Positions 15,876 through 64,000 of a stretch of 64,000 nucleotides of DNA are shown piece by piece; positions within the stretch are counted from its first letter, which is position 1, and each line of letters opens with the position of its first letter. The notes under the pieces are model-generated. The model was not told where the DNA came from, ran no database searches, and saw only the letters and a program-made list of their open reading frames with translations. The translations under genes were made by a program, and so were the position numbers. Source of the DNA: Apostichopus japonicus (taxonomy: Eukaryota > Echinodermata > Holothuroidea > Aspidochirotida > Stichopodidae); contig NC_092576.1 in the NCBI RefSeq assembly GCF_037975245.1, positions 7,961,001-8,025,000 on the forward strand. The letters are read 5' to 3'.

Positions 15876-15895
15876 GCATTACTATGGATGTATCT

Positions 15896-16232: not shown

Positions 16233-16234
16233 CG

Positions 16235-22572: not shown

Positions 22573-24340
22573 ATGATCGATCAGATTTCACCCTTTTTGG
22601 GGGCTATTAAGTATATATAGCACCTGCTGAGCTATACTGTGACATGCATTAATATAATGACTCAGCAATTTAATCGTGTAACGAAACCACTGTTCATTCA
22701 GTAACAGGATTCATCTTTGTGAAACGTTTTTCCAAGGCAGTCAGTCCAAACTGAAGTACTTCATTATATATTTAAAAAAAAATACTGGCAAAACAGACTG
22801 CATTGAATATAGCTGGTGATAAAGTACAGTTTAACTGGACCTAGATTTAGGTAATATTTCAAAGTATCGATCGATTTATATAGTTTAGAATTTAAGCCAA
22901 AAAAAAAAACACCCGAGACAGTCATCATCACATCAGTAAAGGTCACAATGACAAACAATAGGAAAGGAAAAGTTGGTGAGGTGTGGTGCAGTACGTACTT
23001 ACTCTGTGAATCAGTAAAACTGCAACCTGTGGCTCTTGTAATACACACTCAACAGTTGTTTGTCTTTGAGGAATGCCTTTGTAGAATCCCACCAGGTGCA
23101 TACAGCTACACAACTAAACCCTTGGGGCAGTGGTGCAGTGAACAATACCTAATATATTTGTACCCAATTGTGTCTGCAGAGACCAATAGACTCAAGATTG
23201 AGTTCAATACTACCTGTACAGCAAAAACCACCCACACACTTCTTACAATACTAGTTGGCCATGTACAGCAGGTTCTGTACGTTCCATTGCATTCATAATA
23301 ATAGCAATTGTCATACCATACATACATTCAGTACATCTGTAAGTCTAGTGAAGTGTGTGTGTCTAAATGCCCCTTTTTGTATCTTCGGTATTTTTCCCGT
23401 TGATCTGTTATTTACCAGATTACCAGTCTTCATTTTGTCCTTTTGTGTATATTCTTATCCTGCGAAATATCGAGAGGGCGTAGTCAAATTCTCTTTCATT
23501 CCCCAGCATTGTAGCGTGTGAAGTCCATGTTGATTTATTGTGACTGTGCTCAAGACCTGCTCTAGTGAATCAGCCTTTTGTTGTACATTTGAATACCATT
23601 TAAAGAACTACTAAAAGGTTACCTCTTCAGTTGCTAAACTGTATGCATTACCTTGAAATGAAAATTTATTTCACAATAGAATTTTGGAATGCTATCCATT
23701 TTCATTAAACCTTGTCATGCACAACACCATATCCCATAGGCTGTGAAATTCTGCAGGCCTGCCCTACTGTACGACACATGTACATAGCAATATAAATATA
23801 CACAGTGTATTGTGTAATTAATGCATGGCTATCATATTTTAGTCTTTGTAGTACTGTAAGGGTACAGATTTGGTACATGTATGCGTGTACTATAAAAATG
23901 AAGTGGTCATTTCTGTAACAAGGTGTTTGTACGGTCTGAGCAAGTGATAATAATCACATTGTATAAAGCTTTCACTATCACACACCATGATTCTGTATAC
24001 ATGTATACAAGTGGTGTTCAGTTAGTAACAGGGGTACAGTACTGCACTGATACATGGTTATTGATTATCAATACTGTATTGTACTACTGTATGTGCCATA
24101 GACTTCTGCACTGCAGAGTGTCATAGCCTTACTTACTGTAGCTGGTAATGGAGGACAGGGTAAACAGTACTTATTGATTGATGGTGTGTCTTTAATGTTC
24201 TGTACTGTGTGTGTCATGTAAACATTGAGCTGCTGTCTGCTCTGACAGGGACTGTTCAATATTGTTTGGCAGTATAAAATACATACTATATATTGGAAAT
24301 TGTAGTGAGTTGGAAAATCCAGAACAGTGAAAAACTTCCA
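22573..24340. other. Intergenic stretch without a supported gene
   Basis: Short ORFs only, none with recognisable similarity or paired splice sites. Confidence 0.4.
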
Positions 24341-24342
24341 GC

Positions 24343-24412
24343 CTCCACCGGGAGTCGAACCCGGGCCTCCTGCTTTACATGCGGATACCCTAACCACTAG
24401 CTATAGACACTG
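24343..24412 (-). repeat. tRNA-like sequence (SINE head or tRNA pseudogene)
   Basis: The minus strand contains an A-box-like TAGCTAGTGGTTAGGG and a near-consensus B box GGGTTCGACTCCC with a paired T stem. The putative anticodon loop reads ATGTAAA. The 5' acceptor strand does not pair with the 3' side, so this is not a functional tRNA. It is more likely a tRNA-derived SINE head. Confidence 0.6.
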
Positions 24413-24602
24413 ATTGTATGTCCAGAGGTTTGAATAATATAGTTGAGCTGTACATACAGTATTGTTCAAGTTAACACCCTGATGACAGGGATGGTGACAT
24501 GTTTACAGTAACTCTTTTCAATATGTATTTGCAAAGAACACCATTTGGACTGCAATTGTTTGCCAAAGGCTTGGGTACTTCAGCAAGTCCTACTAACCAG
24601 GT

Positions 24603-25873
24603 ACTGTACAGACCTACATCACAGCATGTACTGTACAGACCTACATCACAGCATGTACTGTACAGACCTACAGCACACCATGTACTGTATATACATACCT
24701 ACAGCACAGCATGTACTGTGCAGACATACAGCACAGCATGTACTGTACAGACCTACAGCACTGCATGTACAGTACTGTACAGACCTACAGCACATCATGT
24801 ACTGTACAGACCTACAGCACAGCATGTACAGTACTGTACAGACCTACAGCATGTACTGTACAGACCTACAGCATGTACTGTACAGACCTACAGCATGTAC
24901 TGTACAGACCTACAGCACAGCATGTACAGTACTGTACAGACCTACAGCACATCATGTACAGTACTGTACAGACCTACAGCATGTACTTTACAGACCTACA
25001 GCATGTACAGTACTGTACAGACCTACAGCATGTACTGTACAGACCTACAGCACAGCATGTACAGTACTGTACAGACCTACAGCACAGCATGTACAGTACT
25101 GTACAGACCTACAGCATGTACTGTACAGACCTACAGCACAGCATGTACAGTACTGTACAGACCTACAGCATGTACTGTACAGACCTACAGCATGTACTTT
25201 ACAGACCTACAGCATGTACAGTACTGTACAGACCTACAGCATGTACTGTACAGACCTACAGCACAGCATGTACAGTACTGTACAGACCTACAGCACAGCA
25301 TGTACAGTACTGTACAGACCTACAGCATGTACTGTACAGACCTACAGCACAGCATGTACAGTACTGTACAGACCTACAGCATGTACTTTACAGACCTACA
25401 GCATGTACAGTACTGTACAGACCTACAGCATGTACTGTACAGACCTACAGCACAGCATGTACAGTACTGTACAGACCTACAGCACAGCATGTACAGTACT
25501 GTACAGACCTACAGCATGTACTGTACAGACCTACAGCATGTACAGTACTGTACAGACCTACAGCACAGCATGTACAGTACTGTACAGACCTACAGCACAG
25601 CATGTACAGTACTGTACAGACCTACAGCATGTACTGTACCTAGACCTACAGCATGTACAGTACTGTACAGACCTACAGCATGTACTTTACAGACCTACAG
25701 CATGTACAGTACTGTACAGACCTACAGCATGTACTGTACAGACCTACAGCACAGCATGTACAGTACTGTACAGACCTACAGCACAGCATGTACAGTACTG
25801 TACAGACCTACAGCATGTACTGTACAGACCTACAGCATGTACTGTACAGACCTACAGCACAGCATGTACTGTA
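24603..25873. repeat. Minisatellite of 22/27/32-bp modular units
   Basis: About 1.27 kb of tandem units built from ACCTACAGCATGTACTGTAC plus AG (22 bases) with one or two optional 5-base additions, giving 27 and 32 bases. The longer units contain the perfect 16-base palindrome TGTACAGTACTGTACA. A GTACTTTACAG variant recurs at about 24985, 25196, 25385 and 25684, suggesting higher-order copying. All three plus-strand frames stay open across most of the array, producing ORFs of 480, 443 and 310 aa. These are repeat artefacts rather than genes. Confidence 0.95.
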
Positions 25874-27425: not shown

Positions 27426-30400
27426 ATGTCGGATAATAAGTATACCGCTGAGAAGACCCAGTATGGAATGGGCGAAGCAGGGGTGACCACACCGCCAGGA
27501 CAGCAGGCTCAGCCGATACCAGGACAACCGATTGTGAGTGGTCAACCTCTACCTGGAGCTCCCGGACAGGTGCAATGGATGGCTCCACCACCAGTGAGTA
27601 ATCCCCTCATCACACAACCAACCATTACCATAGATAATATGTGTACTTTGTAAAAATGTACATTTCTCCCATTACCTTGGGCCAACTTCCTTTCTACCCC
27701 CCTCCCCCCCCCCCCAGTACCACTAAAATATTTTCTCAGTAGTCTCCAGTCAGCTGTAACTACTTTACAGTGTAGATCCCACCCAGCTAATTCTGTATCT
27801 AATATTTGCGTTTAATAGGTATGTTGAATTGTTTTATTGGTACAGGGGGTTGAGGAGGTCCCCCCGTACCACTAAAATATTTTCTCAGTAGTCTCCAGTT
27901 AGCTGTTACTACTTTACAATGTATAGACCCCACCCAGCTAATTCTGTGTCTAAAATTTGCTTCCACTGGTTTAATACGAATGTTTAATTGTTTTATTGTG
28001 TATATTTAGTTGTGTACAGTATGTATGTTTTATCGTGTTTTATTGTGTTTAATATGGTTGAACTCCTACTGTACTAAAACCCCACTACCATTTACCACCT
28101 GCACAGTGTACATTGCACTCAAATAATCTCCATGGTACATCAATAAATTTACTGCACACATAACCAGATTTTTGAGAATAGATGGATCAATATTTTACAG
28201 GTTTACAGGTCTACGTGGAATACTGTAGTTATACGTTACCAGCTAATACTTTAGTGTGGGAAAATATTTAGGTGCATTAGTAGAGCAGAGACAGGTAAGT
28301 TTCTTGTCAATACCCCAAGCCAGATCTGGTTCTTTTTTGCTCCTGATTGCAATTTTCTGCATCTTTTGCACAGGTTGGACTGGATTAGGGCCTAACCCAT
28401 AAATATATTCAATCATAAATAAACATCAATTTTGTTTTGAAAAGAAATAACACATAACAATATTCTTACCATGTATCAAGACAAAAAAAAATAATAATAA
28501 AATATATCCATTTTTTAACAATTTATGTTCATTTTAACAACAGGCTATTCCTGGATGTCCCCCTGGCCTTGAGTACCTGACACAGTTAGACCAGATACTT
28601 GTTCACCAACAGGTGGAACTCTTTGAAGCTTTCACTGGGATTGAGACCAAAAATCGTTACCAGATTAAGAATGCTCTTGGACAGCAGGTAAGTTTATCCA
28701 GTCTGAACAACAGACTACAAAATATGGGACAAGGACACAACATTTGGTTCTTTTATTTTGGGGTGGGGGGGGGGCATGTGTGAGAAATTTCCAGACATCA
28801 AAAAATGAGACATACACGTTTTGGAGCTTGCCAATTTTCATGTTCTACAGGCTCCAGCTTTCATAACTTTAATGAGTATCAAGTCAAATCTGAAGAGTGG
28901 TTTCCTGGTGGGTCCTGGAACAGTTCCCATTGCTCCCGGGGCCAGGGTGGGGGGAGGGGAAGGTATGGCCTAGAACATTGGAGACCTACAAATCTAGTTG
29001 ATACTTCTAATTGTGGCTCCGTCGTGCAGCATGACACCAACGTCGGACCTAGAAGTGAAATCAGTGAGGGATTGAAGTGTCATAATCTTAAGACACCTTC
29101 CTGTTTAAATCCTTCAAGTCCTTGAAGTCCTTCACCCTCTCACTCACTCCCTCCCTTCTCAGGCCTCAGTCTTTCCCCCCTCACTCACTCCCTCCCCCAC
29201 AGGCCTCAGTCCTTCCCCCTGTCACTCACTCCCTCCCCCTCAGGCCTCAGTCCTTCCCCCTCACTCACTCCCTCCCCCCTCAGGCCTCAGTCCTTCCCCC
29301 TCACTCACTCCCTCCCTCCCCCCTCACTCACTCCCTCCCCCTTCAGGCCTCAGTCCTTCCCCCTCACTCACTCCCTCACCCCACAGGCCTCAGTCATTCC
29401 CCCTCTCACTCACTCCCTCCTTCAGTCCCTCCCCCTCTCACACCCCCTACCCCTCAGGCCTCAGTCCTGCCCCCTCTCACTCACTCCCTCTCCTCTCACT
29501 CCCTCTCCACCCTCAGTCCTCCCCCTCACACTCCCTCCCCCTCTCTCTCCATTAATCCTTTCCCGTTTTCTTGATAAGATGTTCTTTGCCTACGAGGAGT
29601 CTGAACTGTGCATGAGGCTGTGTTGTGGACCTCAGCGTAGCTTTATGATGCATGTCCTCAACAACCTGAACCAAGAGGTTCTGAGGGTGGTGAGGCCATT
29701 CCAATGTTGCTCGGGGTGCTGCTGGTGCGCAGGGTGCTGCGATCACTGTGCCCTCACCATCGCCATCGAGTCTCCTCCTGGCCAAGTGATCGGACACGTC
29801 CGGCAGAGGTAACATCCAAAAACATAATACAGCATCATGTAATTGGTCCACGGTGGTGTCACTTCAAAATATCAAATTCCCTTTTCCTTGCAACCGTGGC
29901 GGACTTTAACCATTGTTCTATCGTCTGAGAGGACAAAGTTTTGTTTTTGATGACCAATTATCCTCGTGCGATCAGACAGATCGGACAAATACTACAGAAA
30001 AAAAAAGTATCATGTTTGAACTTATATTTAGCAAATTATACACAATCGTTTGATCGATTGGTTCAGTGACAAAGGAAAACACCATTAAGCTGCCCTTCAA
30101 TAGATAATTCGAGAAAGGTAGACTGTCTTGTCTTTGAGTTTAACACATGCAGTAAAGTAGTCTATTTTGTGTTGTTTTTTAAGGGAAGTAATACATGCAA
30201 GGCCCATTATGAGATTCATTTATGAATTTTTTTTGTTCACATGGATATGATAGGAATGACTATTTATCCATTTATTTTCATTCACAAGGTGAAAGCCAAA
30301 ACCAAAGACACTATGACAACTATGACACTCATTTCTATTAATTTTTTTACTTTTTTCATCCACAGGGGAAGTAAATGGAAGGCCCATTATGAGATTCTCG

Positions 30401-41640: not shown

Positions 41641-42451
41641 TTTTCAATAAAATATCAATGACATAATTTTATCGCTTGAAGTTAATATATTGAGAAAATT
41701 TAATAGACAAACCAACGCAGGATAAGCGCATGGAAGTTATTCGGCTGGAATGACATAAAATATAATGCAGGTATATTGATATTAAACGTAATAACATCTA
41801 TAAAAATATGTACTCCGGCTAAAAGCAAATAATTCCATACTACTTCATCAAAAAATAGGAGTACGTTTTATATTTCTATATTAAATTTAATAGCTAGCAA
41901 AATTTATATTATAGTTTAGACATAGAACTTCATGAAGATGCAATCGTTGTCTTTACTGACGAAGTGAAGGAAAATCACCAAACATATGGAAGAAGGTCTC
42001 TGATATTTTGTGGTTGATTGTGTTTTTAAAACTGATTGTATACTTTTACAGAAACATAATGGTGAAAACGTTAATGTTCTTTTCCAACTATATTGGTTAT
42101 TATGCGACAATAACTGTATGTAAGAAGAAACGCCGGGCTGCAAGCAAAGTTTGAATTGCGTATATGAATTTAGTCGTGTAAAGGAATAGGCCTTCTCACT
42201 TACCTACAACTTCTGAATGTGCATTATTATGTGAACTCCCCCCTCTCGCCCCTTCCCCCCAAAGAAATGTGTCATGTCACATTCTTCCGTGGACAACATT
42301 TTTTTCATTGTCTTTAATTTTTTTTTCACATTCCGGACTCTCATCGTTGTATTGCTTTTGTCTGAAGGCAAGTTTTAATAAATTCGCTTATAAGTGTGAT
42401 ATTCGAGACTGCAAAACATTTTGAAAACAGTTGACATTGTAGGCCTACACC

Positions 42452-42756: not shown

Positions 42757-43043
42757 CCTACACCCTTAATGCAAGGTTCACGTGTACTAAATGCTGACAT
42801 TTGACATACCCGTTCTTTTCTTCATCTTCTTTTCAGATGAATTTTAATATGCATTGGGAAGGTCGTTAACTGCAGTTTTAATGAACTAAAAGACTCAACT
42901 TAGTCTAATATGAACAAACTGGACTGACTAAATGATACGTCATTTTACTTTCTGCCGTTCAGCTGTCAAGACTCAATTTTGTTTTTACTCAACTGTTAAG
43001 TTAAATATTTTAAATATTTTTCAATTAGGATAAATCTATCAGC

Positions 43044-44577
43044 ATGAATGTCCAACCATCCATTCCGAAGATTGCTGTCTGCATGGTTTGGCTTGTTTCT
43101 TATGCATATTTTTGCGAGTCTCAAGAAATAATAGCTGGTCTTCGATATGCCAAGAATTTTGGACCTAGTGGGAGATTTCTCGTTCAACGTTCACATCTTG
43201 AAGACGCTATCCAAGAGCTTGGCTTAGAAGGTAAGGAAATATCAAAAAGGACTGAAAAAAGTTGAGAAATCAGATTGTTTGTAACTATTACCGGATATAT
43301 GATTTGATATAATTCCACGTTTTAGATTCACTTCCTGGCAGCACATTGTCCGTTTTCAAGGGCCTTAACTCAGGAATTCACTCACCGATAAAGCAATTAA
43401 ATGTCTCTAAAGGTTGTTTTCTGCAAAGGCATACAATAGTCTCTAAAAGAAGCATCTCTATAATATCTCAAATGTTCACGTGAGATGTATCCTAATTGAT
43501 TAAAAGCTTAAGTGTTGCGTTTGATTCGTTCTTTGATTCTAATTTGTGATTATTATCAATAACAATGAACGTTACAAATTGTATGCTATCATAACTTGAT
43601 CCCTCGTATTTAAAGGTGATAGGATAACCATTTAAAACAACAATATCATACTATTTTGGTTTTGATATTAGGAACACAAAATTTGATTTGTTTGGTATTT
43701 TACATGTGTAGCAATCATGTCTAGTTTCAGCAACTTGATCATAAGACTGCATTGACTTTTGATTTATTAAGAAAACCAAAAAATAATAACATTAGACACA
43801 AGAACACTAACTGTTTGTTTTCTAAGATGAAATAATTAATTTATTGTTTTTCATGTAGGTATGGTTCAACTGTTGACATCTTCTGAGTACGATGATACCA
43901 TTGGTGAAGTAGCAGTTCAGGTGCAAAGTTGTACGGATCTGACCATTGCTGACGAACTCTCTACTTCCCAACAGGACCAGATATCCACTTCCGGGACCGT
44001 CCTTTTCATTGGTTTACCTGTTGTTTCCTCTGACAGCGGTGCCCACTTGTTAATCTCGATGGCATATTTAACTGACGCAGCAAAACCGTTATTAATTCCT
44101 TACATGACTAGTGCAGATGCAATTCAATATATTGACAGCATTGAAATGGGAGAAGATTACATCATCCTACGAGATAATGACGACGTAATGCGGATCAGTG
44201 TCTACCATGATCAAAATTGTGTTGATAACGAAGAACTGGGCAAGGATTTGGACAATTTTGTCGGGGGACACGACGTTCGTCTTTCTAACTATCCAGCGAA
44301 ATTCGACTGGGGTTGTGATAGTCTTAGGGATGACGTCAGTTTTTGTGAAGTCCTCGACCCTTTCATGTGTGCCATCCAGAGTACCAACGGCAACGTGTGT
44401 ACAACGATGTCAACAACTCTGTCAAGGAGATGTCTAGCAGATATGGAGATTGTCGAAATGACCGGGGTCTTTGAAGAGGCTGCCCCATTTCTGGCTAGTA
44501 AAGTTCCAACTAAAAGCTTTGAGGCTGGATGGATTATAAGAGAGCACGGTGTAGGCATTGTGTTTCCTTGCTTCTAG
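43044..44577 (+). CDS. Unrecognised secreted eight-cysteine protein, copy A
   Basis: Exon 1 (43044-43230) and exon 2 (43859-44577) join in phase 1 to give 301 aa. Residues 1 to about 26 form a signal peptide (IPKIAVCMVWLVSYAYFCES), with cleavage likely before QEII. The mature protein is acidic and has eight cysteines (87, 183, 215, 225, 233, 243, 254, 300), enough for four disulfides, with no further membrane segment. I recognise no domain. Notable stretches are PSGRFLVQRSHLEDAI, MGEDYIILRDNDDVMR and GVGIVFPCF at the end. Just before the ATG, TTTTCAATTAG resembles an acceptor, so a 5' untranslated exon is possible. It converges on a C-type lectin gene. A second copy lies 10.8 kb downstream. 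Conservation of the frame and splice sites in both copies supports a real gene. Confidence 0.85.
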
Positions 44578-44647
44578 TGTCTCCTGTTTTACTTCTGTAA
44601 TAGGATTACCACGCACTACTCACCTGTAGTTTTTCTCAGAATCAATC

Positions 44648-44653
44648 ATTAAA
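44648..44653 (+). terminator. Poly(A) signal ATTAAA, unknown secreted gene A
   Basis: Variant hexamer 71 bases after the stop codon, conserved in copy B. Confidence 0.5.
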
Positions 44654-44659
44654 ACCGTG

Positions 44660-47600
44660 AGACATTTTTTTTCTGCCTCTTTTATTTATTACATTTTAGA
44701 GGGAAAGTAATTGTAAAAAATTATCATTGAAAGTAAAATCATAAATTACGGAAAGACATATGTTTCAAAATGATAGAATATAATAGTACGTCAGAAAAAG
44801 TATCAGCATGTTAAAAGTTAATGTCAAAATGCCAATATTGAATTAAGTATGTTTTCCACACAGCACACTAGATCGGTGCATGAACCTGATTTCTTTGATA
44901 ATTTTAACTATAATTAAATACATTTATTAGGGAATGCGTAGAATGACGTGGAACGCTATTATGATTCTGCAATCAACACTTGTATTCAACATGATAATAA
45001 ATTATTCCCACTGCATATTGTTTATCGCGTGATAATGTAAGTATTTTTCTTGTCTATAATTGTCTCCTTTCTATCTCTTGGTACCGCTGTTGAAATTTCG
45101 CTGAGACTCCAAGTCATGCATTTTTAAAACTCAGCCCTTTGACACGCTAAAATATAAATAACAAGTTCAGGGAAAGTGTTTAAACAAAACATTGTGTAAT
45201 AATTCACCAATGGCACCAAACGTGAGTGTGTATACGTGTTGTAGGCATCCATGTATCGGTGCAGATTGGTTGGAAAATTAGTTTTTTACTTGTGACTGTA
45301 ATGGACATGACCGAATTCACAGGTAAGACCTCTTTGCGACACGAGATGAGATGCCTTAAAGTCTCAACGTCTGTTTTCCAAATTTTAACTTCGACCTTTC
45401 CAGCTTACTGCCCTAAAAGCTCAGTAAAAATGACACCGTTCTATACAGTTTTCATAAAAAAAATGATTATTTTTATTGAATTATCTGTCGTTAAACATAT
45501 TAAGCTGAATAAAATTCGCCAGATTTTTTAACGAGTCCGTAGATTCTTCAAACTTCATTCAAACTTTGCAAGCCCCGCCCAACAGGTCGCGCGTAAATCA
45601 AATCTCTTTGTTTTGTTTACGACCATGAGGCCTGCGTGCTAGCCTGTGTTAGGTCAATTTTCTTGAACAGTGTATATCTTTCTTTCACCGTAAAATTGTG
45701 GACGAAAAGTGGATGATACGAGTATATATAGGTTTCACTTGTGTGATGAACATCCTGATATGGGCGGTCAGCAGTGATTTACGGTAAACCATTCCCGCCA
45801 GAAGCGCAATAGAAAATAAATAAAAGGCTGTTACAACAGTCAAGTCTGGATGAAACAAAAGCATGGATAAGTGACTTAGTCGACATTTGATCAAGATATT
45901 TGCGAATTTGGCTATTTTTTTCTGATAGCGAGTGCAGCAGAGGGGTAGATGTTATGAACATGTGGCACCAGTGTAAGTTTATAAATAGTTACAGGTGTGA
46001 CGTATAGGTTACTCTTGAATGTTCAAACTCTTGTCTATGACTTTCACGTCGTACCGATATCCATACGCAGATCCAGTGGGGTAAGGTGGGGTACAACTCT
46101 TTTTTTTCAGCCCCCATAAAAAAAAATAAAAGTAGATATTAGCACAACCTTGCATTTTAACCGTACCTGCCGTAATTATTCACCCAACTGAAAGCCTAAA
46201 AATGCCTCAAAATGAGTGTATCAGTTTCTTTGGCGGGGGAGATGGGCATGGAAACCCTCCACCCCTACATGAGAATCCGCTTCAACGACCTCAGGCCCTC
46301 CTCTTCAAAATGTTGCATCCACCACAGTTATCGCATTAAATATTTTCTCGGAGATTAGTATGAGTGTAATGGCTTAATGATGTGATATATATCACATAAA
46401 AGTTATAATACCGCTGACTGTGTAGTGTCCGAAAACTTTATGCAGATGTTTGGACATCCCTCTCTGGACAATGGTTCCGTCCATGCTAATTAGGGTGACC
46501 GTGCAGTGACCTTTTATAAGTTTCAACCCTTTATAGTGTTAATGTTTAAATAGTATTATCTAAAATATTTCTATCATTTGAGGTCAAAATTGTGGAACTT
46601 GGTTGAAAAATTATCGAGGTACAAGGATTGTCATAAGATCACGTATAAAAATTAGGTCCCCAAAATAGCTTTTTTTGATACATACATACCAATAGTAATA
46701 AACTTTTTGTTTTTGGTGTATTTTATGTTAAAGTAGTATTATATAAAATATTTCCTATCATTTGAGGCTAAAATTGTGGAAATTTGTTGAAAAACTGCGG
46801 ACACGCCCCCTCTATCAGGCTATACAATACATAAAGAAATCACGTATATACACCCACACATTGTGCAAGTTGTTCTTACAACAACGGATTGGTGGCGCTT
46901 TCCGATATTCATTGCTTTACTGTTATAAGGAATCATGTAAAGAACATAATATTTATTACTTTTTGAAAAGAGTTGTAGGGTGCGCGAAATATGATTTTTG
47001 GAAACTATGAAGTTTATTAACTGTTTTTCTGTTTTTGGACGGGTTTTAGGCGATTTTCCGAAGATATTGCAAATATCCAATTCTCTATAGCCCTGATCTT
47101 CCCAGGGTACTTTTTTTAAATGTGTTGGGCTTGTTGTAGAACATTTATGAAGGTGCTGGCCTGTATCTATGTGGCGCGTAGATTTGTTTGAAAGCAAAAA
47201 AGGTCACTTTTTGAATAGCACCCCCTAAAAGTAAATTTTGCGAAGGTACCATTTTTTTCAAAAGTTATATTTCTTTGGGGCATATTCCGACCAGTGAAAG
47301 GTCAAGGAAGTTGCCAGGTGGGACAAATCTCTCTCATTTACCTACCTATACTTTATGAGTTGTGTTAACCTGAATATCGAATATATGATGGAGAGTAGGG
47401 GTGACGGGTGGGGTGGGGGTGGTGGGGAAAGGTTGGTATAATGCTGTAAGATGGGAAGTGTCATAAACCTTCATGTAGCTAACAAATGCAATTGACATTT
47501 TGAGTAGAAGATGAATCAAACAACATGATTTCTCCCTGATATTATCAGCTGAAGGAATATCAGCAGTGATTCCAAATATGCCAGATTTTACTCGCACTCT

Positions 47601-48727
47601 CAACGTAGTTATCCACACTGAGGTTTATAATTGTCTATGGTCAAATAAATCGAGGATCAGAGCCTCTACAAATGTATTTCTAAAAGCTTCTATCATTTTT
47701 AGGTTGCTAAAGTTTGGGAATCAATACTGATGATCTTATAGCTACTGAACTGTTATCATTAGTCAGTGTTTTGTTTTACAGGTCAGGAGCCCCTGTAGCG
47801 TCGGGTAAAAGGTAAGGACTGTTCTAGGGTTGATTCGACGGATAGGCTTCAAAGAGTATCCATTTGAAATGTAACATGTCGCAATCTTGATGTCGAAGAA
47901 TAAGTTGTTGATTTCCATTAGCTTATTCTCTCCATCTTGGTGATATATAACTTTATGTAGGAATATCTTAGGGTTGGCTATGATGAGGTTACATAATTAA
48001 CTAAATATAACTTTAAACCAGATGTGTATGAGCACGTGAGACCTATTTCGTGCTCTTTTGCAACATCAATAAAGGAATCAGAGAATACAAACCACTTAAT
48101 TCCCATTTCTTCAATATTTTATGCCATTATGTTAAAGTATTGATGACAAATTAAAGTCTGGAGTAACATTGAAACCTACATGCAACTAATCATGCATTTA
48201 CCCTTCCAAAGACCATTAAAATTAAAAACGGAAGTGTAAACATATTTTTTAAACCTTCACAGAATATTGATTACAACTCGACAATGGTACAGTAAACAAC
48301 GTCCGCTAAAAACATTTTCTAATTTCAAATGATAGTCCAGAGGAAAAAAAAAAAGACTAAATATATTGATTATTCATCCAAGAAAAAAAATCGCTAGCAA
48401 TTTTTTACCATGCGTTTTCCAAATATTGCTAATTGTAGTTGTCACAGTTTATACCATATATGAACATGAAACAAACATTATAATGATGTCACAGTTGTAC
48501 ACCGATAAGCAACATGTTGTGTTTTCTTTACTTTTTAACTTATTTCTACTGGATTGGTTAGGGTTCGAATTTACTTAGAGAATGTGAAGTTATCAATTAA
48601 AACACAAATGGAGAACATCTTAAGGTATTTAAGACATTATATAAATTCGTCAGTGTGTGTCGCTTTTCTTAAAGTTCATATTTTGTGCAAAAACGTGTAA
48701 ACTTCAACTGTTTTGATCTAAAAAATC
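44660..48727. other. Conserved non-coding stretch between the two genes of unit A
   Basis: Aligns closely with 56430-60631 of unit B. Short shared ORFs (such as 45226-45531) lack splice or codon evidence. Contains a LINE fragment (45812-45965). Confidence 0.5.
45812..45965 (-). pseudogene. LINE reverse-transcriptase C-terminal fragment, unit A
   Basis: The minus-strand frame reads IRKYLDQMSTKSLIHAFVSS then RLDCCNSLLF, a pattern typical of the region after the RT catalytic core in non-LTR elements (SRLDYCNSLLYGLP in intact ones). The rest is lost at a deletion relative to unit B. Confidence 0.7.
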
Positions 48728-51914
<3,187 letters not shown>

Positions 51915-51989
51915 GATTCAGTCTTCTCAGGTGAGACGTAGAGGTCAGTAATCGAAAGTGAATTGTGAAGAAACGATGGCTTTGCTCAA

Positions 51990-51998
51990 GTTTTTATC
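51990..51998 (-). promoter_or_regulatory. TATA-like box of lectin A
   Basis: GATAAAAAC on the minus strand, 76-84 bases upstream of the start codon and conserved in copy B at 63808-63816. Suggests a short 5' leader without an intron. Confidence 0.45.
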
Positions 51999-52191
51999 TC
52001 TTTTGCATCTCCAAGTTTGCATAACTTTCATTCGGTGACGCGGAAGCGAATCAACCTTTAAAGGACAAGTTGACCATACAGCCTTGGCAATAGTGTTTAA
52101 GTGCTGGTTGTTTCTTTTGCTAAGAAGCCAGTCGCGGTACTAGTTTTAAGACAGCTGTATGCGTCAGGAGCGCTTGAATGAATATTATATA

Positions 52192-52971
52192 CAGTCACGT
52201 ATCCAGGGGGGGGGGCGTTGGGGCGGCGCGCGACCTCCGGGTAAGAAACAGAAGAAAGAAGAAAAGGGGGAAAACACTGGGGAAAAAATAGGAGGAAGGA
52301 GAGGAAGGAAGGGAAAAGAAAAAGAAGATAGAGAGAGAGAGAGGAGAAAAGGAGGGAGAAGAAGAAAAACGCAAAGACACCGGGAAGAGAAGGAGGAACA
52401 GTGACATAATTAAAGCGCTGATCCCTGTGTGCGCCTCACCCTACCCCTTACACCGACAACTCCATATTTGTCGTTTTCATTTTTCCTCTTTCACTAATGT
52501 ATATATATATATATATACTATATATGGTCTATCATAACGCGTGTGTGTGTATGGGCGCCTTAAAAAGTTGTACGATTGTGCTTGGCTGGTCTTGAACTCT
52601 ACCAAGTCGTCGGGGAACATGACGCATTTGGTATTAAACCAGGATCTGTATGCGAACTGCACTAGACCTATGTCCTTCGATTCAACACTGCCATCTCGAG
52701 AGAAAATGTTAAACCCTCAGACCTGAATGCTAATTGTTACCCAAACCTAGTACCGCAACTCTTACAATGAATATAAAAATAAATTCCGCATGCGATTGGA
52801 GAATTGAGAACATCTCCTGTCAATATAATGTAGTGGATCCAATGGCGTACCATGGGCGGAGGAGGGGGGGGGGCAGAAATGTTCTTGTTCGCTGCGCGCT
52901 AACCGATGGTCGCGCTCCGCTTGGATAGTAATTCGCGCCCCCCGGGTTAGAAAATCCTGGATACGGGCCTG
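52192..52971. mobile_element. Possible hAT-like element at the junction of the two segmental units
   Basis: Starts CAGTCACGTATCCAGG and ends CCTGGATACGGGCCTG. The reverse complement of the end, CAGGCCCGTATCCAGG, matches the start at 13 of 16 positions. A G homopolymer follows the left end and a purine-rich tract lies at 52245-52400. A second G-rich end-like word (CAATGGCGTACCATGG) at 52840 means this could be two nested elements. No clean target-site duplication was found. Confidence 0.5.
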
Positions 52972-53824
52972 TATATATTAGGCTTATCTGTGTAACACGT
53001 TGCTATAGCCCATGTTTTTTAAGCTGCCATACAGTCCTTTACTTTTTAAAGAAGCGAGGCTATATGTACCCTCATATGTGAATGGTTTTATGATTGCACG
53101 CATCTCTGAATCCATCTTCAAGTTCGATTATGTTTTTCTCCAGGCTTTTTGTTGACATCAAAATATAATGACATATAATTTTATCCATTGAAATAATATT
53201 TTGAGAACATCAATATATATACCAACGCAAGATAACCGCAGTGGAAGTTTACTCGACTGGAATGAAATAAAGCATCATGCATGATATTGATATTAAACGT
53301 AATAACATCTAAATAAATATGTACTAGATATAAAAGCGAATAATTCTTTATAACTTCATCAAAAATTGAGTATCGTTTATGGTTCACTATTCAAATTTGT
53401 AGCAATTAACATTAATGTTTTAGTTTAGACAAAGAACATCATGAAGATGCAATGTTTATTTTTATTGAAGTAGTAAAGGAAAATCAACAAATATGCAAAG
53501 ATGTCTGTTGCAATATGGTTGATTGTACTTTCAAAACTGATCGTATTCTTTTACAGATACTCTAATAGTGAAACTGTTTATGTTCTTTTCCAACTGTATT
53601 GGGCATTATTCGACAATAAATGTATTTAAGAAGAAAAAACCGGGCTGCAAGCCAGTGACGACTGAATTTATCAACTAAACTTACTCTAATATAAAACAAA
53701 CTGGACTGATTAAATGATACGTCATTTTACTTTTGCCGTTCAGCTGTCAAGACTCAGTTTTGTTTTTACTTAACTGTTTAGTTAAATATATTAAATATCT
53801 TTCGTTCAGGATAAGTCTATCAGC

Positions 53825-56349
53825 ATGAATGTCCAACGATCCATTCCGAAGATTGCTGTCTGCATGGTTTGGCTTGTTTCTTATGCATATTTTTGCGAGT
53901 CTCAAGAAATAATAGCTGGTCTTCGATATGCCAAGAATTTTGGACCTAGTGGGAGATTTCTCGTTCAACGTTCACATCTTGAAGACGCTATCCAAGAGCT
54001 TGGCTTAGAAGGTAAGGAAATATCAATAAGGACTGAAATAAGTTGACGAATCAGATTTTTGTAACTATTACCGGATATATGATTTGATATAATTCCACGT
54101 TTTAGATTCATTTCCTCGCAGCACATTGTCCGTTTTCAAGGACATTAACTCAGGAATTCACTCACCGATAAAGCAATTAAATGTCTCTCAAATAATACCT
54201 TTAAAATGCCCTTAAACTCCATCTCATGACCAAATATGTGTGACTAATATTTCTTGGTTATGCTATTGAAGTCTTTGATTACCTTAAATAGCAGTAACTC
54301 ATTTCTTTGTGTTTTTTAACTCTTTTTCTCGTTTATGGTTCTATAGTTAGTGGTATTTGTATTTTGTAAAGGGGTGTTTATGTTAATAAGTTACTCCAAG
54401 CTTCTTGTGAGCACTCCTCAGTCTCTTTAAAATTATCATATTCTGTGTATTAGTATGTTGTTTATTTCAAAATCATCTGAAATAAAGTTCTATGAATAAA
54501 ACAAAAAGAAACAAAATAGGATAAATTAATGTCATTACACTATGAAATCTAATCGTTGCCAAGACCATAAAATGCGTCCTAATACACAGACGTATATCAC
54601 GAGCTGCAAATCGCCCAAAATCAAATATGATTTTGTTGCTAGGATAGAGGGTCTCACATTCATAGTTCTACCTATACCATACTCTAGGTAGACTCACCAT
54701 GTTATCGACGAAATATTGTAACAACCAACTTTTGGCATATTCATTTACTGTCAAATCCTATTTCATACACTTACAACACATCGGAAACATGTTACTATAT
54801 TTTCTTAAGCTAAAGTGGTTGCATAACTTGTTAAAGTACTGTTTCAGTTTTCTCAGCAATTCTTAAATGCAAGTACTGTACCTTTTTTCCAAACTGCCAC
54901 TATTTAAGTGTCCATGTTTTGGTTAAATGCTGGTACATGTTTTATCAAACTTTGTCCAGGGGTACCGTCAGTAAGATATCTTGTGGTATTACTAAAAAGT
55001 ACAAAAAGATTACAACTTTTTAGAATGCATATTATTAACAATTTATCAAGTTGGTTTATACACAAAAACTAGTGAAAATAATTTTGTCGTTAATCGACTT
55101 GTAGAAACTTTAGACAGGTTTGCTAGCACCTCCCCATTGGATAACTGGCGCGTTTGCCATCTTTTTCATACATGACCAGTACCTCCAGTGTTGTTCCTCT
55201 GCTCTTCTGCACAGGCATACAATAGTCTCTATAATTTCTCAAATTTTCACACGAGATGTATCCTGTTTGATTAAAAGTTTAAGTGTTGCATATTATTCTT
55301 TTTTTCGAATCTAATTTGTGATTATTATCAATAACAATGAACGTTACATATTGTATGCTATCATAACTAGATCCCTCATATTAAAGGTGATAAGATAACC
55401 ATTTAAAATAATAATTTCATAGGTTTTTGGTTTTGATATTAGCAACTCAAAATTTGATTTGTTTGCTATCTTATATGTGTAGCAATAATGTCTAGTTTCA
55501 ACAACTTGATCATGAGACTACACTGACTTTTGATTAATTAAGAAATCCAACAAATAATAGCATAAGAAACACTTTAACTAACTGTATGTTTTCGAAGAAG
55601 AAAGTAATTAATTTTTTGTTTTTCATGTAGGTATGGTTCAACTGTTGACGTCTTCTGAGTACGATGATACTCTTGGTGAAGTAGCAGTTCTGGTACAAAG
55701 TTGTTCGGATCTGACCATTGCTGACGGACTCTCTACTTCCCAACAGGACCAGATATCCACTTCCGGGACCGTCCTTCTCATTGGTTTACCTGTTGTTTCC
55801 TCCAACAGCGGTGACCATGCGTTAATCTGGTTGGCACTTTTAACTGACGCAGCAAAACCGTTATTAGTTCCTTACATGACGAGTACAGATGCAATTCAAT
55901 ATATTGACAGCATTGAAATGGGAGAAGATTACATCATCCTACGAGATAATGACGACGTAATGCGGATCGGTGTCTACCATGATCAAAATTGTGTTGATAA
56001 CGAAGAACTGGGCAAGGATTTGGACAATTTTGTCGGGGGACAGGACGTTCGTCTTTCTAACTATCCAGCGAAATTCGACTGGGGTTGTGATAGTCTTAGG
56101 GATGACGTCAATTTTTGTGAAGTCCTCGACCCTCTCATGTGTGCCATCCAGAGTACCAACGGCAACGCGTGTACAACGATGTCAACAAGTAGGTCAAGGA
56201 GATGTCTAGCAGATATGGAGATTGTCGAAATGACCGGGGTCTTTGAAGAGGCTGCCCCATTTCTGGCTAGTAAAGTTCCAACTAAAAGCTTTGAGGCTGG
56301 ATGGATTACAAGAGAGCACGGTGTAGGCATTGTGTTTCCTTGCTTCTAG
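53825..56349 (+). CDS. Unrecognised secreted eight-cysteine protein, copy B
   Basis: Exons 53825-54011 and 55631-56349 give 301 aa with the same splice phase and signal peptide as copy A. All eight cysteines are kept. Exon 1 differs from copy A at one residue (P5R). Exon 2 differs at 21 residues, six of them within residues 121-132. The intron is about 1 kb longer than in copy A. The word preceding the ATG (CTTTCGTTCAG) is an even better acceptor than in copy A, supporting an upstream untranslated exon. Its start codon is 1.9 kb from that of the lectin A gene, which runs the other way, so the two could share a regulatory region. No function can be assigned. Confidence 0.85.
54190..55210. other. 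Extra ~1-kb block in intron 1 of copy B
   Basis: Unit A passes directly from AAATGTCTCTAAAGG to AAAGGCATACAATAG, whereas unit B carries about 1 kb between the same two words. No terminal repeats, target duplication or coding region were recognised, so it could be an insertion in B or a deletion in A. Confidence 0.55.
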
Positions 56350-56419
56350 TGTCTCCTGTTTTACTTCTGTAATAGGATTACCACGCACTACTCACCTGTA
56401 GTTTTTCTCAGAATCAATC

Positions 56420-56425
56420 ATTAAA
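56420..56425 (+). terminator. Poly(A) signal ATTAAA, unknown secreted gene B
   Basis: Same position relative to the stop codon as in copy A. Confidence 0.5.
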
Positions 56426-56429
56426 ACCG

Positions 56430-59400
56430 TGAGACATTTTTTTTCTGCCTCTTTTATTTATTACATTTTAGAGGGAAAGTAATTGTAAAAAATTATCATT
56501 GAAAGTAAAATCATAAATTACGGAAAGACATATGATTCAAAATGATAGAATAAATCAGTACCTCAGAAAAAGTATCAGCATGTTAAAAGTTAATGTCAAA
56601 ATGCCAATATTGAATTAAGTATGTTTTCCACACAGCACACTATATCGGTGCATGAACCTGATTTCTTTGATAATTATAACTATAATTAAATACATTTATT
56701 AGGGAATGCGTAGAATGACGTGGAACGCTATTATGATTCTGCAATCAACACTTGTATTCAACATGATAATAAATTATTCCCACTGCATATTGTTTATCGC
56801 GTGATAATGTAAGTATTTTTTTTTGTCTATAATTGTCTCCTTTCTAACTCTTAGTACCGCTGTTGAAATCTCGCTGAGACTCCAAGTCATGCATGTTTAA
56901 AACTCAGCCCTTTGACACGCTAAAATATAAATAATAAGTTCAGGTAAATTGTGTAAACAAAACATTGTGTAATAATTCACCAATGGCACCAGTACGTGAA
57001 AGTTTATACGTGTTGTAGACATCCGTGTATCGGTGCTGATTAGTTGGAAAATTAGCTTTTTATTTGTGACTGTAATGGACATGACCGAATTCACAGGTAA
57101 GACCTCTTTGCGACACGAGATGAGATGCCTTAAAGTCTCAACGTCTGTTTTCCAAATTTTAACTTCGACCTTTCCAGCTTACTGCCCTAAAAGCTCAGTA
57201 AAAATGACACCGTTCTATACAGTTTTCATAAAATAATGATTATTTTTATTGAATTATCTGTCGTTAAACATATTAAGCAGAATAAAATTCGCCAGATTTT
57301 TTAACGAGTCCGTAGATTCTTCAAACTACATTCAAACTATGCAAGCCCCGCCAAACAGGTCGCGCGTAAATCAAATCTCTCTGTTTTGTTTACGACCGTG
57401 AGGCCTGCGTGCTATCCTGTTTTAGGTCTATTCTCTTGAATAGTATATATCTTTCTATCGGTCTTACCGATGTATCTTGCGAAATTGTGTTATTTCCTCC
57501 CATTGCAAGGACTAAACAGGTGTTTTCAGACGTTTCCTCCGTAAAATTGTGGACGAAAAGTGGACGATACGAGTATATATAGGTTTCACTTGTGTAATGA
57601 ACATGCTGATATGGGCGGTCAGCAGTGATTTTACGGTAAACATTCCCGGAAGAAAAGCAATAGAAAATAAATTCGTTCTTCCGATTGCGACAGCTTTTTT
57701 TCAATAAACCCACTTGGTCAGAGTGCATTTAGGATGAGAAATATTGAATCTGCTTCGGAAGTTTGTTTTCAAAATTCTTCAACAAACATATTTTCTATGT
57801 TGGTGACACCTATCGTGCATCATTTAGCTTGAGTAATTAGTATCAAATAAGTTTCGAGCTGGTGAACAGAGCTTTTCCCTATAGGACCTACTTGTAACAG
57901 TTCACTGGATTTGGTAAGCCGGAAGTCCAAATAAAAGGCTGTTACAACAGTCAAGTCTGGATGAAACAAAAGCATGGATAAGTGACTTAGTCGACATTTG
58001 ATCAAGATATTTGCGAATTTGGCTATTTTTTTTCTGATAGCGAGTGCAGCAGAGGGGTAGATGTTATGAACAGGTGTCACCAGTGCGAGTTTATAAATAG
58101 TTAAAGGTGTGACGTATAGGTTACTCTTGAAAGTTCAAACATTTGTCTATGACTTTCACGTCGTACCGATATCCATACGCAGATCCAGTGGGGTAAGGTG
58201 GGGTACAACTCCCTTTTTCAGCCCACATAAAAAATGAAAGTAGATATAAGCACAACCGTGCTTGTTAACCGTACCAGCCGTAATTATTCACCCAACTGAA
58301 AGCCTAAAAATGCCTCAAATGAGTGTATCAGTTTCTTTGGCGGGGAGATGGGCATTAAAAACCCAACTCCAACATGAGAATCCGCTTCAACGACCTCAGG
58401 CCCTCCTCTTCATAATCTTGCATCCACCACTGTCATCGCATTAAATATTTACTAATACAACATGATAACAAAATGTTGGAGGTAATTGAAATGTTTTCTA
58501 GAGATTGGTATGAGTGTAATGGCTTAATGATGAGATATATATATCACATAAAAGTTAAAATACCGCTGACAGTGTAGTGCCCGAAAACTTTATCCAGATG
58601 TTTGGACATCCCTGTCTGGACAATGGTTCCGTCCATGTTAATTAGGTTGACCGTGCAGTGACCTTTTATAAGTTTCAACCCTTTAAAGTGTTAATGTAAA
58701 AATAGTATTATCTAAAATATTTTCTATCATTTGAGGCTAAAATTGTGAAAATTTGTTGAAAAAATGACCGAAATATAAGGATTGTCATTAAAATTGCGGA
58801 CACGCCCCCTCTATCAGGCTATACAATACATAAAAAAAATCACGTATATACACCCACACATTGTGCAAGCCTTGTTCTTACAACAACGGATTGGTGGCGC
58901 TTTACCGATATTCATTTCTTTACTGTTATAAGGAAGCCTGTAAAGAACATAATATTTATTACTTTTTAAAAAGAGTTGTGATTTTTGGAAACTGTGAAGT
59001 TTATCAACTGTTATTCTGTTTTTGGACGGGTTTTTGGCGATTTTCCGAAGATATTGCAAATATCCAATTCTCTTTAGCCCTGATCGTTCCAGGTAGTTTG
59101 TTTTAGTGTGTTGGGCTTGTTGTAGAACATTTATGAAGGTGCTGGCCTGTTTCTATGTGGCGCGTAGATTTGTTTGAAAGCAAAAAAGGTCAAAATGTAG
59201 AACTTTCCCACTTTTTGAATAGCACCCCCTAAACGTAAATTTTGCAATCATACAATTTTTTTTTAAAGATATTTTTCTTTGAGGCATATTCCGCCCAGTG
59301 ATAGGTCAAGGAAGTTGCCAGGTGGGACAAATCTCTCTCATTTACCTACCTATACTTTATGAGTTGTGTTAACCTGAATATCGAATATATGATGGAAGGG

Positions 59401-60631
59401 AGGGGTGGGGGTGGGGGTGGGGGTGGGTGGTGGGGGAAGGTTGGTATAATGCTGTAAGATGGGAAGTGGCATAAACCTTCATGTAGCTAACAAATGCAAT
59501 TGACATTTTGAGTAGAAGATATCCACACTGAGGTTTATACTTGTCTATGGTTAATCAATTGGAGGATCAGAGTCTCTACAAAAGTATTTCTGAAAGTTTC
59601 TAGCATTTTTAGGTTGCTAAAGTTTGGGAGTCAATACTGATGATATTATAGCTACTGTCAGTGTTTTTTTTTATTACAGGTCAGGAGCCCATGTAGCGTC
59701 GGGTAAAAGGTAAGGACTGTTCTAAGGGTTGATTCAACGGTTATGCTTCAAAGAGTATCCATTCGAAATGTAACATGTCGCAATCTTGATGTCGACGAAT
59801 AAGTTGTTGATTTCCATTGGATTATTCTCTCCTTCTTGGTGATATATAACTTTATGTAGGAATATCTTAGGGTTGGCTATAATGAGGTTACATAATTAAC
59901 TAAATATAGCTTTAAACCAGATGTGTATGAGCACGTGAGACCTATTTCGTGCTCTTTTGCAACATCAATAAAGGAATCAGAGAATACAAACCACTTTATT
60001 CCCATTTCCACAATATTTTATTCCATTATGTTAAAGTATTGATGACAAATTAAAGTCTGGAGTAACATTGAAACCTACGTGCAACTAATCATGCATTTAC
60101 ACTACCAAAGACCATTTAAATTAAAAACGGAAGTCTAAACATTTTTGTAAAACCTTCACAGAATATTGATTACAACTCGACAATGGTACAGTAAACAACG
60201 TCCGCTAAAAACAGTTTCTAATTTCAAATGATAGTCCAGAGGAAAAAAAAAGACTAAAGATATTGATTATTCATCCAAGAAAAAAAAATCGCTTCTAGCA
60301 ATTTTTTACCATGCGTTTTCCAAATATTGCTAATTTTAGTTGTCACAGTTTATACCATATATGAACATGAAACAAACATTATAATGATACCACAGTTGTA
60401 CACCGATAAGCAACATGTTGTGTTTTCTTTACTTTTTAAATTATTTCTACTGGATTGGTTAGGATTTGAATTTATTTTGACAATGTGAAGTTATCAATTT
60501 AAACACAAATGGAGAACATCTTAAGGTATTTAAGACATTATATAAATTCGTCGGTGTGAGTCGCTTTTCTTAAAGTTCATATTTTGTGCACAAACGTGCA
60601 AACTTCAACTGTTTTGATCTAAAAAATCCAA
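56430..60631. other. Conserved non-coding stretch between the two genes of unit B
   Basis: Counterpart of 44660-48727. Includes the longer LINE fragment and a GGTGGG-rich microsatellite near 59400-59435. No supported gene. Confidence 0.5.
57880..58085 (-). pseudogene. LINE reverse-transcriptase C-terminal fragment, unit B
   Basis: The minus-strand frame reads IRKYLDQMSTKSLIHAFVSS, RLDCCNSLLFGLPAYQIQ and then a stop. It is longer than the unit A copy, showing that the LINE scrap predates the segmental duplication and was later shortened in A. Confidence 0.75.
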
Positions 60632-60932
60632 TTAAAGACATGGAAGTTTACAAATGAAAGGAAATTGATCGTTAGTGAATGTATGGACGTCCACCCATTG
60701 ACCATTGCAGTAACTTCCGCCGGAAAAGGCACCGTACCCATCAGGGTGGGCATTGGGGTCATTTCCGCACCAGTTCTGGTAGTCGTAGTAGGAGCCGTCC
60801 GTCCAGGCGGGTGAAACACCATCCTTTAATCGAAGACCTATGAAGACTTGGGGATTCCAGCCATCAGTAGCCTTTAAGGTAAAGCAAGTAATATCTCTTA
60901 TAACAGATATCATGGACAGGAATACGTGTATA

Positions 60933-60963
<31 letters not shown>

Positions 60964-63732
60964 CACATATATTACAAAGTTGGATTGATTATTTGTATTC
61001 AAACATAAGAAGGGAATTTAAAAGCTTGTAAGTTCCTTCTGTCTAAGATATTCAACTTTAAAACAATTCAAGTCCTTGGAATGATGCGCTAAAGTTAAAT
61101 TGGACTTGATTGCAGGTCTTAATATTAATGTTAAATTGATTGTTTTGTGACACAAACTGGAGTGATAACATTGATTTTAGCTGTGTACTGTTTGAGCAGC
61201 ACTTCAGGGGGTTAAATAGATTTTGAAAAGGCAACACTTAAATTCTCTATTGTGGAAACTTTGAATTATTTATTTTCATTTTGTAAATGGTTTAATGTAG
61301 AGGTTAAGGTTTCATTCACACTTTCCAGTTGCAAGGTCTTATTTTTTTTCGTCACTGTCATGTTTCGTAACATGTTATGTCGTGATATGAAACATTACTT
61401 TCTACATACTACACAATTTCTAAGTATTATAAAGCATTTTATTATCAGAACGTAACTGATGCATAACCCATTAATTTCTTTGATTAAATTTAAGGATCTC
61501 TTTTCATTATGAATTTTTCCTATGTGGTTTTATAAAGTGGGTCATGAAACCCCGATTCCTATTAAAAAGAGGACATACACCCATCCATGATTGTTAACTT
61601 ATTTGACCGATATTTGGAGAACAACTGACCTCTAAACAGATAAAAAACATTTTTCTCTGTTTGGGTGATATTCTACTTTAAAAAGTCTGTAAGCTGTAAG
61701 TCTGTGATTTCGTTATGCCACTAACATCTTATAAAAAACCTTTTCGATTTCTCTTTGATTTTCTCTTTATAATTGCAGGGTAGCATGTTAACAGTTTTGA
61801 AACCATTGCCATGATTAGATCATTTTAAGGGTTTGGATTTCTAAAAAACCCATGGCAACTCCGATACAGAAAATGAACATTAAAATAAGGAAATAATACC
61901 ATAAAAAAATGCAGTCCATGTGACTCTATGATGCCATAGTTTGACTTCATCAAATCTTCAGCGTTTGTGTAAAGGAACATTAATTATATGTGATCCCCAA
62001 GATTGAGTAAGATTTTTCTTAGCTGTTTGGGGAAGGTATTGATGACAGTGAGCACTATCAAGTAGACAAACAATAATGGCTTGATCGAGGTCTCTTTAAA
62101 CATTGCTGGATATTATAGTTACCCCTGGAACCATTGAAGCTAGGGCTTCATATTCCTCGGTTGAATGGACTGAAGCAAGATGTCCGAAACCATAAGGGCC
62201 TGGACTAAAATGTCGACACGTCGATTCTGCTTCTTCAAAGGTCTTAGGAGTATCGACGTATCTGTGACGGAATAAAAACGTAAAGTAGTTTTCATCGGTA
62301 TACAGGTTATTTTTACACGATGACATGTATATAAATTAATCAAAGGAGATTCTGTAAACCGTTACAACGATTCCCACTAAATAACGAAAACGAAAAAGTG
62401 TCTATTGACAAAGTTGTTTGAAATGGTTCTTGTTAAGTGTGTTTCTGGGGAGAATGGGATAGTTAAATTATGATGAAAGAACCAGTTATGTGTAAATTTG
62501 GTAATAACTAAACTTACAAATAATTGGTCGTCTATCTTTCTATGGGAAGGGAATCTACGAACAAGGACATTTTACAACGACATTCTAAGACTCAAAGAAG
62601 TTAAAGAGACTTTTCCACATTGTACGCGGGACTAAAAGTTTACTCAGTGCCTGTAAGACACCATAAAATAACTCGCCCTTCCTTTTTTTCTCGGGACTAT
62701 AGTCGTTGGATATATTAAGAGGCGGAAGATTACCTAACAGTCCTCGAGATATTTGCTGAAAACCTTGACCTATGTATAATATCCCTACTAAATGAGGAAG
62801 GTGGAAGATTGATCCATCAATCTGTTTACTCCATATTTCTTGGAGATATTTTGTCACATGAGCCAAAATATAAATGAGAATACCAAGGAGACATCCAAAT
62901 GATACAATTTGTGCTTAAATATCCGAAGAATTCCATTTATAAGTAGAACTTAGCTTTCGAATACACTGCTAACTGAAACATCGACACTTTTACATGTTAA
63001 ATTTTAGGAATCATTCATTCTTTGACGTAAATATCGAAGGCACCAATGTATGATGATTTTGATCAATGAAGCATTTGTATTTTGTAGCATTTTATGAAAT
63101 TTGAAATGATGTGCGAATTTGTATGAAATTGGTTCGTTAAAGAGATTATTACACGTTTAATATTTAAACAGACAACTATTGATGTCAAATGCCCCCAAAG
63201 CGGAATCAGCCGATGAAATACCTGTATTTGCTTTCGAAACAGCAAATTTAGAGAGCTTTAACCTTTTCATCGTTTTGTCTAAGATATTGTCTCGTATCTA
63301 TTCCATTCCGAATGGACTCTTCAGATGCACATACACCTGATCACACTGTCAGAGTCTCGAGGCAAGGCGACTAGTGTTGAGAGTGGATCAGTTAATTCGT
63401 TTGGTTTCCGTGCCCAGGCTCCCATCGTTCATTTCCGTGATGCTCGCCTGACGTTACGCCGTAATTATTCTCACGGTTATAATATCAATTTAAGTGAACT
63501 TTGGTTGAAAATTAAATAACTTGTTTGGTTATATGCTCATTCTCTAATATTGGTGAATTTTCTATAAGAAAATGAAATTAACTACAACCTATTTAACAAA
63601 ATGAAATATAATTTCTGCTTACTTGTAACAGCCAGAACCAGGAATTGCCATCCAGTCGGGGTAACAGGAACAAGCACTGCATCCTCCAAGGAGAGTTAAG
63701 GCAAAGACGACAGTGACCAGAGACAGAGCCAT
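60632..63732 (-). CDS. Secreted C-type lectin, copy B
   Basis: Exons 63732-63623, 62261-62123 and 60871-60632 give 162 aa. The protein differs from copy A only in the signal peptide (V10F), two residues in exon 3 (S to G in ATDGWNP, N to Y in GGSYCNGQW) and loss of the final Glu through an earlier stop. Exon 2 is identical at the protein level. The domain landmarks, including NWCGNDPN and WVD in place of the canonical triplet and WND, are retained. Most other changes are silent, indicating constraint. Same role expected as copy A. Confidence 0.92.
60931..60970. repeat. Short (TA)n/(CA)n microsatellite in lectin intron 2, copy B
   Basis: Counterpart of the much longer run at 49028-49140. Confidence 0.9.
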
Positions 63733-63807
63733 GATTCAGTCTTCTCAGGTGAGATGTAGATGTTAGTAATCGAAAGTGAATTGTGAAGAAACGATGGCTT
63801 TGCTAAA

Positions 63808-63816
63808 GTTTTTATC
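63808..63816 (-). promoter_or_regulatory. TATA-like box of lectin B
   Basis: GATAAAAAC at the same distance from the start codon as in copy A. Confidence 0.45.
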
Positions 63817-64000
63817 TCTTTTGCATCTCCAAGTTTGCGTAACTTTCATCCAGTGACGCGGAAGCGAATCAACCTTTAAAGGACAAGTTGATCGTACAAC
63901 CGTGACAATAGTGTTTAAGTGCTGGTTGTTTCTTTGCTAAGAAGAAGCCCGTCGCGGTACTAGTTTTAAGACAGCTGTATGCGTCAGGAAAGCTTGAATG

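Follow-up and report, generated by a model that had tools for sequence, protein, structure and literature searches.

A large family of two-exon genes with a six-cysteine core in the sea cucumber Apostichopus japonicus, unmatched in the domain libraries searched

The SpTransformer genes (SpTrf, also Sp185/333) are immune genes of sea urchins, which the sections of PMC5491942 drawn on here describe as small two-exon genes that carry the leader in exon 1 and lie in tight clusters. For the sea cucumber Apostichopus japonicus itself, a 'PSP94-like' cluster has been described that consists of 11 tandem genes with highly conserved cysteines and no homologues in other species, and whose expression rises more than 10,000-fold 0–3 days after evisceration (PMC5638244); the same source deals with the fibrinogen-related proteins (FREPs) of this species. 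The part of PMC13228809 that we consulted treats other expanded families. Here we describe two genes, A and B, in a 64,000-nucleotide stretch of the A. japonicus genome (NC_092576.1, positions 7,961,001 to 8,025,000, or C16:7961001-8025000 in our numbering; hereafter the window, to which all positions without a sequence name refer) and the family to which they belong. A first-pass annotation of the window had read the pair as an unrecognised family of secreted eight-cysteine proteins. The gene pair, the existence of a family and its lack of recognisable relatives all stand, but eight cysteines are not the mark of the family, which has a six-cysteine core and occupies at least 100 places in the genome.

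A and B are two-exon genes encoding proteins of 301 residues each, of which 279 are identical. In gene A, exon 1 (43044–43230, + strand) encodes a predicted leader and approximately 37 mature residues that include a GRFLVQR..L motif, and has homologous first exons at other loci; it is followed by a phase-1 intron of 628 nt (43231–43858) and by exon 2 (43859–44577), which encodes the remainder of the protein with its eight cysteines and ends in the stop codon (44575–44577). Gene B, on the same strand, consists of exon 1 (53825–54011), a phase-1 intron of 1619 nt (54012–55630) and exon 2 (55631–56349). The two genes have a common donor (AAG/GTAAGG) and a TAG acceptor, and both intact paralogues were thus recovered as first annotated. 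A common poly(A) signal had also been noted, and candidate signals, which are motif matches only, do follow both stop codons, at 44648–45001 in gene A (ATTAAA at 44648 and 44913, AATAAA at 44996) and at 56420–56773 in gene B (ATTAAA at 56420 and 56685, AATAAA at 56549 and 56768); in DNA this rich in A and T they are weak evidence. When the window was shuffled 60 times with a first-order Markov model, the longest stop-free frame averaged 151 codons and reached 233 at most, so that the exon-2 frames (245 codons) are longer than any obtained in this way. Frame length alone is nevertheless no proof of a gene, because a simple tandem repeat in the window (24601–25873, approximately 47 copies of a 27-nt unit) gives three longer frames of 348–488 codons, all of them spurious.

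The signal peptide was called by eye and from hydropathy. If the leader is cleaved after residue 26, as we assume, the mature protein would comprise 275 residues with a mass of about 30 kDa and an isoelectric point of 4.2, and contains no N-glycosylation motif. It is as acidic as the first reading had it, and the distribution of cysteines also agrees with that reading: those after the leader are at residues 87, 183, 215, 225, 233, 243, 254 and 300, one in the N-terminal half and seven in the C-terminal half.

The family proved to be far larger than the two paralogues first recognized. We searched the A. japonicus assembly (671,581,487 bases in 35 sequences), for which all match counts are lower bounds. 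Exon 2 of A gave 47 matches (E-value up to 0.001), the distant member L028 gave 37 (E up to 0.01) and a third query, L063, gave 71; merged, these searches identified 99 places. At 81 of them, on 16 sequences, the match spans 590 nt or more and is uninterrupted by stops; the other 18 are broken or partial. The final query, L071, gave 59 matches but added only one new place (the fragment C11:23034547-23034816), bringing the total to at least 100, so the count is nearly saturated. A frame without a stop is not equivalent to a functional gene, as examples among the 81 show: exon 1 of L023 contains a stop, L025 has lost the C-terminus and L022 has lost the last cysteine. The largest cluster (C18:13788069-13896565) contains 22 frames that are 91–100% identical to L071, 15 on the + strand and seven on the − strand, at a spacing of 4.3–8.3 kb. 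Members near A (alignment A1, 24 sequences) and distant members (alignment A5, 16 sequences) matched in a profile–profile comparison over 213 columns (99.3%, E = 2.2e-20), which joins the two halves into one family. A 40-member tree places A and B beside L007 (support 100/98) and, with lower confidence, L003–L005 (89/88); the tree program flagged long branches. A and B are part of a large expanded family of two-exon genes with about a hundred copies, far beyond the window pair. Elsewhere on the sequence that carries the window, five broken family copies, with internal stops or partial frames, are spread over 0.28 Mb (C16:3158307-3436043).

The family is protein-coding and constrained. Among 24 close pairs, the ratio of nonsynonymous to synonymous substitution rates (dN/dS) in exon 2 is 0.14–0.81 in 22, the two remaining pairs being A/B (1.02) and L026/L027 (1.00). 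The core cysteines occupy exon-2 residues 120, 152, 162, 180, 191 and 237, and all six are present in 24 of 25 rows of an alignment of more diverse members (A4) and in 23 of 24 rows of A1, with residue 120 missing in L078 and residue 237 in L022. Among 27 aligned exon-2 frames, five cysteines are invariant and two others are present in 25 each, one being absent from L006 and L007 and the other from L022 and L025; the cysteine at residue 87 occurs in A and B only. The cysteine at residue 233 is frequent (14 of the 25 members of A4), and a cysteine in the N-terminal half accompanies it in 13 of these 14 members, compared with five of the 11 that lack it (Fisher p = 0.02, with relatedness ignored). 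In L007, exon 2 carries just the core six, and the mature segment encoded by exon 1 is free of cysteine. All eight cysteines claimed as conserved are indeed present in both A and B, but the core of the family is six, with a seventh frequent, other positions variable and an eighth private to the window pair.

A leader exon followed by a phase-1 intron likewise recurs across the family. An AG is found at the aligned phase-1 acceptor position in 26 of 27 loci, the exception being L006. A scan of 30 loci that required phase-1 donors identified a leader-like exon 1 with the shared motif in 15, one of which holds a stop and one of which has a doubtful start; within the limits of that scan, no exon 1 was found in the other 15. 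Two distant genes were checked with donors of all phases listed, and both encode a leader and a comparable motif up to a phase-1 GTAAGT donor. Exon 1 of A itself matches seven places in the genome, three of them at E-values above 0.001 and below 0.02; two of the weak matches, L067 and L068, have no listed exon 2 nearby.

A and B owe their similarity to a tandem duplication of about 10 kb. The first copy (42893–52180) holds gene A together with C-type lectin exons and the second (53674–64000) carries gene B and runs to the end of the window; pieces of the two are mostly 89–95% identical, in noncoding DNA as well, and an additional duplicated piece (41649–42145) is 80% identical. The genes are thus young segmental duplicates. 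They differ at 22 amino acids, with 22.5 (standard deviation 2.4) expected under neutrality, and dN/dS over the whole coding sequence is 1.07 (NG86) or 1.40 (maximum likelihood). With 22 changes placed at random, the chance that none falls on any of the eight cysteines is 0.52. Because the duplicate is recent, its changes are at the neutral expectation and chance sparing is this probable, the A/B pair alone shows neither constraint nor conservation of the cysteines. One of 187 nucleotides differs between the first exons and 30 of 719 between the second; the similarity of exon 1 may stem either from constraint or from conversion. The window pair is either relaxed or diversifying, and the data favour neither. 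The duplication also contains four C-type-lectin-like exons on the − strand (48728–49015, 50271–50570, 60632–60988 and 62096–62335), for which Pfam gave no match at E-values up to 0.01. The exon at 48728–49015 has CEL-IV, a sea-cucumber lectin, as its closest PDB match (E = 1.8e-16).

No clear match to a described domain family was obtained in the libraries searched. Pfam scans covered 38 of 43 translated exon-2 frames, part of them at E-values up to 10 and part up to 1, and gave no significant match, the best E-value being 0.027 (ADAMTS_C). NCBIfam had no match for protein A, PADLOC had none for three members and a phage collection contained no relative. Profile searches of the PDB at E-values up to 10 gave no matches for alignments A1 and A4 and three for A3 (best E = 0.48). 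The weak Pfam matches (ADAMTS_C, DUF6055 at 0.22 and others) are scattered and below curated cut-offs where these are shown, and we attribute them to chance, as we do the PDB matches to ZntR (0.48), CD96 (1.1) and GldN (1.4). A viral or prokaryotic origin was also rejected: pattern stretches occur in viral (six) and prokaryotic (15) contigs, and none was confirmed as a relative of A. A literature search, which did not reach figures and supplements, found no description of the family, although its genes may exist as hypothetical proteins in public annotation. By sequence comparison, then, the family appears to be unrecognised by the Pfam, NCBIfam, PADLOC, PDB, viral, phage and prokaryotic collections, as first claimed, and a relation at the level of the fold may exist.

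The strongest alternative to a new family starts from that relation: the proteins could have diverged far from a known domain family to which only their fold would still assign them, and would then not be new in kind. Sequence methods overlook distant relatives, and the 24 members of A1 do give weak matches to 13 Pfam families, the best of which, ADAMTS_C, appears in four. These matches are short, however, and vary from member to member, and the PDB profile searches were empty or nearly so. We regard a divergent branch as a real but minority prospect.

The explanation that we prefer, with confidence slightly on the favourable side, is an expanded two-exon secretory family with a six-cysteine core and a proposed binding role, of which A and B are young tandem duplicates. 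Exon 1 would supply the leader and a short segment with a motif resembling [F/L]-x-[V/I]-x-R-x-x-L, and exon 2, beyond the phase-1 intron, would supply mostly hydrophobic, strand-like stretches followed by a part held together by the core. Export through the secretory pathway is plausible from the predicted leader. The six core cysteines may pair into three disulfides, with a fourth possible in many members between residue 233 and an N-terminal-half cysteine of variable position. The product could act in solution, in coelomic fluid, mucus or the gut, as a binding protein for a wide range of external ligands or microbes; its diversity would arise, as for other echinoderm defence families that have expanded, through birth-and-death duplication. 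Binding is favoured over catalysis because, across the diverse alignment, His, Ser, Asp and Glu residues do not form any invariant group indicative of a catalytic centre. An extracellular binding or defence function is a tentative assignment, which we think has a little over one chance in three of being correct.

Several observations weigh against this explanation. The predicted structures have a predicted local distance difference test (pLDDT) score of only 34 for exon 2 of A alone and 33 for the C-terminal half with A and B aligned, and offer no fold that backs a binding role. Several members have odd cysteine totals, which a simple disulfide scheme does not explain, and a dN/dS of about 1 between A and B fits relaxed constraint as well as it fits diversification. 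A defence role would be built on analogy and expansion alone, and expansion is likewise seen in reproductive, digestive and structural proteins.

The genes might instead form a gut or regeneration secretory family whose products are released by the regenerating intestine, in which case one of the clusters may be the published PSP94-like cluster. That cluster's tandem arrangement, conserved cysteines and steep induction after evisceration speak for this, as do the tandem arrays of the present family, such as the 22 genes on C18. The copy number is unlike that of an 11-gene cluster, however, and the PSP94 model (PF05825) is absent from the Pfam matches of the 38 scanned members; a genome-wide search with PF05825 also returned nothing, but its controls were equally silent. 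We consider this origin unlikely. A reproductive or structural family (egg, sperm, body-wall matrix or adhesive) grown by tandem duplication seems similarly improbable. Such roles often involve tandem families of secreted, disulfide-rich proteins that diverge quickly, which counts in its favour together with the dN/dS of about 1 between A and B, but neither A nor B shows a low-complexity or repeat composition. Finally, decay of the window pair into neutral copies that no longer matter would fit the 22 differences and a dN/dS of about 1.0–1.4 depending on the method, but is quite unlikely given that neither frame is interrupted, whereas 65% of the neutral simulations acquired a stop codon, that exon 1 has changed far less than exon 2 and that core cysteines and splice sites are kept, each a weak argument in so young a duplication.

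The remainder of the window contains a frame with a scramblase exon (29126–29812, + strand; PF03803, E = 4.1e-18, residues 148–228), a reverse transcriptase fragment (15894–16286, − strand; RVT_1, E = 7.6e-16) and a tRNA-like match (24340–24410, − strand; 33.5 bits, gathering score 29).

Since A. japonicus is an animal of aquaculture and regeneration research, a large family without a domain model means that expression and proteome studies report its members only as unknowns; a profile of the six-cysteine core would allow existing sea-cucumber RNA-seq data and coelomic-fluid proteomes to be re-read immediately. A bolder proposal, which we think improbable but worth stating, is that the hundred or so loci form a superfamily that is restricted to sea cucumbers and has a new fold with six cysteines, serving as a diversified humoral recognition or defence repertoire of SpTrf-like scale, and that domain libraries would have missed it because it is confined to little-studied animals. 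If a defence role is borne out, the family would add to the echinoderms a second large repertoire of such a sort, on an unrelated protein.

Compared with the systems described above, the family resembles the FREPs of A. japonicus, as presented in the portion of PMC5638244 used here, in being expanded, predicted to be secreted and clustered; the FREPs have a fibrinogen domain, which is absent from the Pfam matches of the 38 scanned members. With the PSP94-like cluster, compared here by its description only, it shares the species, the tandem array, the conserved cysteines and the lack of reported homologues elsewhere, but that cluster was named for the cysteine topology of PSP94 (PMC5638244), whose model none of the 38 scanned members matches. 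The SpTrf mature protein is, in the sections of PMC5491942 cited above, encoded by exon 2, rich in glycine and histidine and equipped with RGD, whereas A and B contain 6.9 and 7.6% Gly and 1.8 and 1.5% His, have no RGD, encode approximately 37 mature residues in exon 1 and have a cysteine core. We claim no relation in sequence to SpTrf. The resemblance would lie in architecture: both are echinoderm multigene families of small two-exon genes, with the leader in exon 1 (from hydropathy only in A and B) and the genes in tight clusters.

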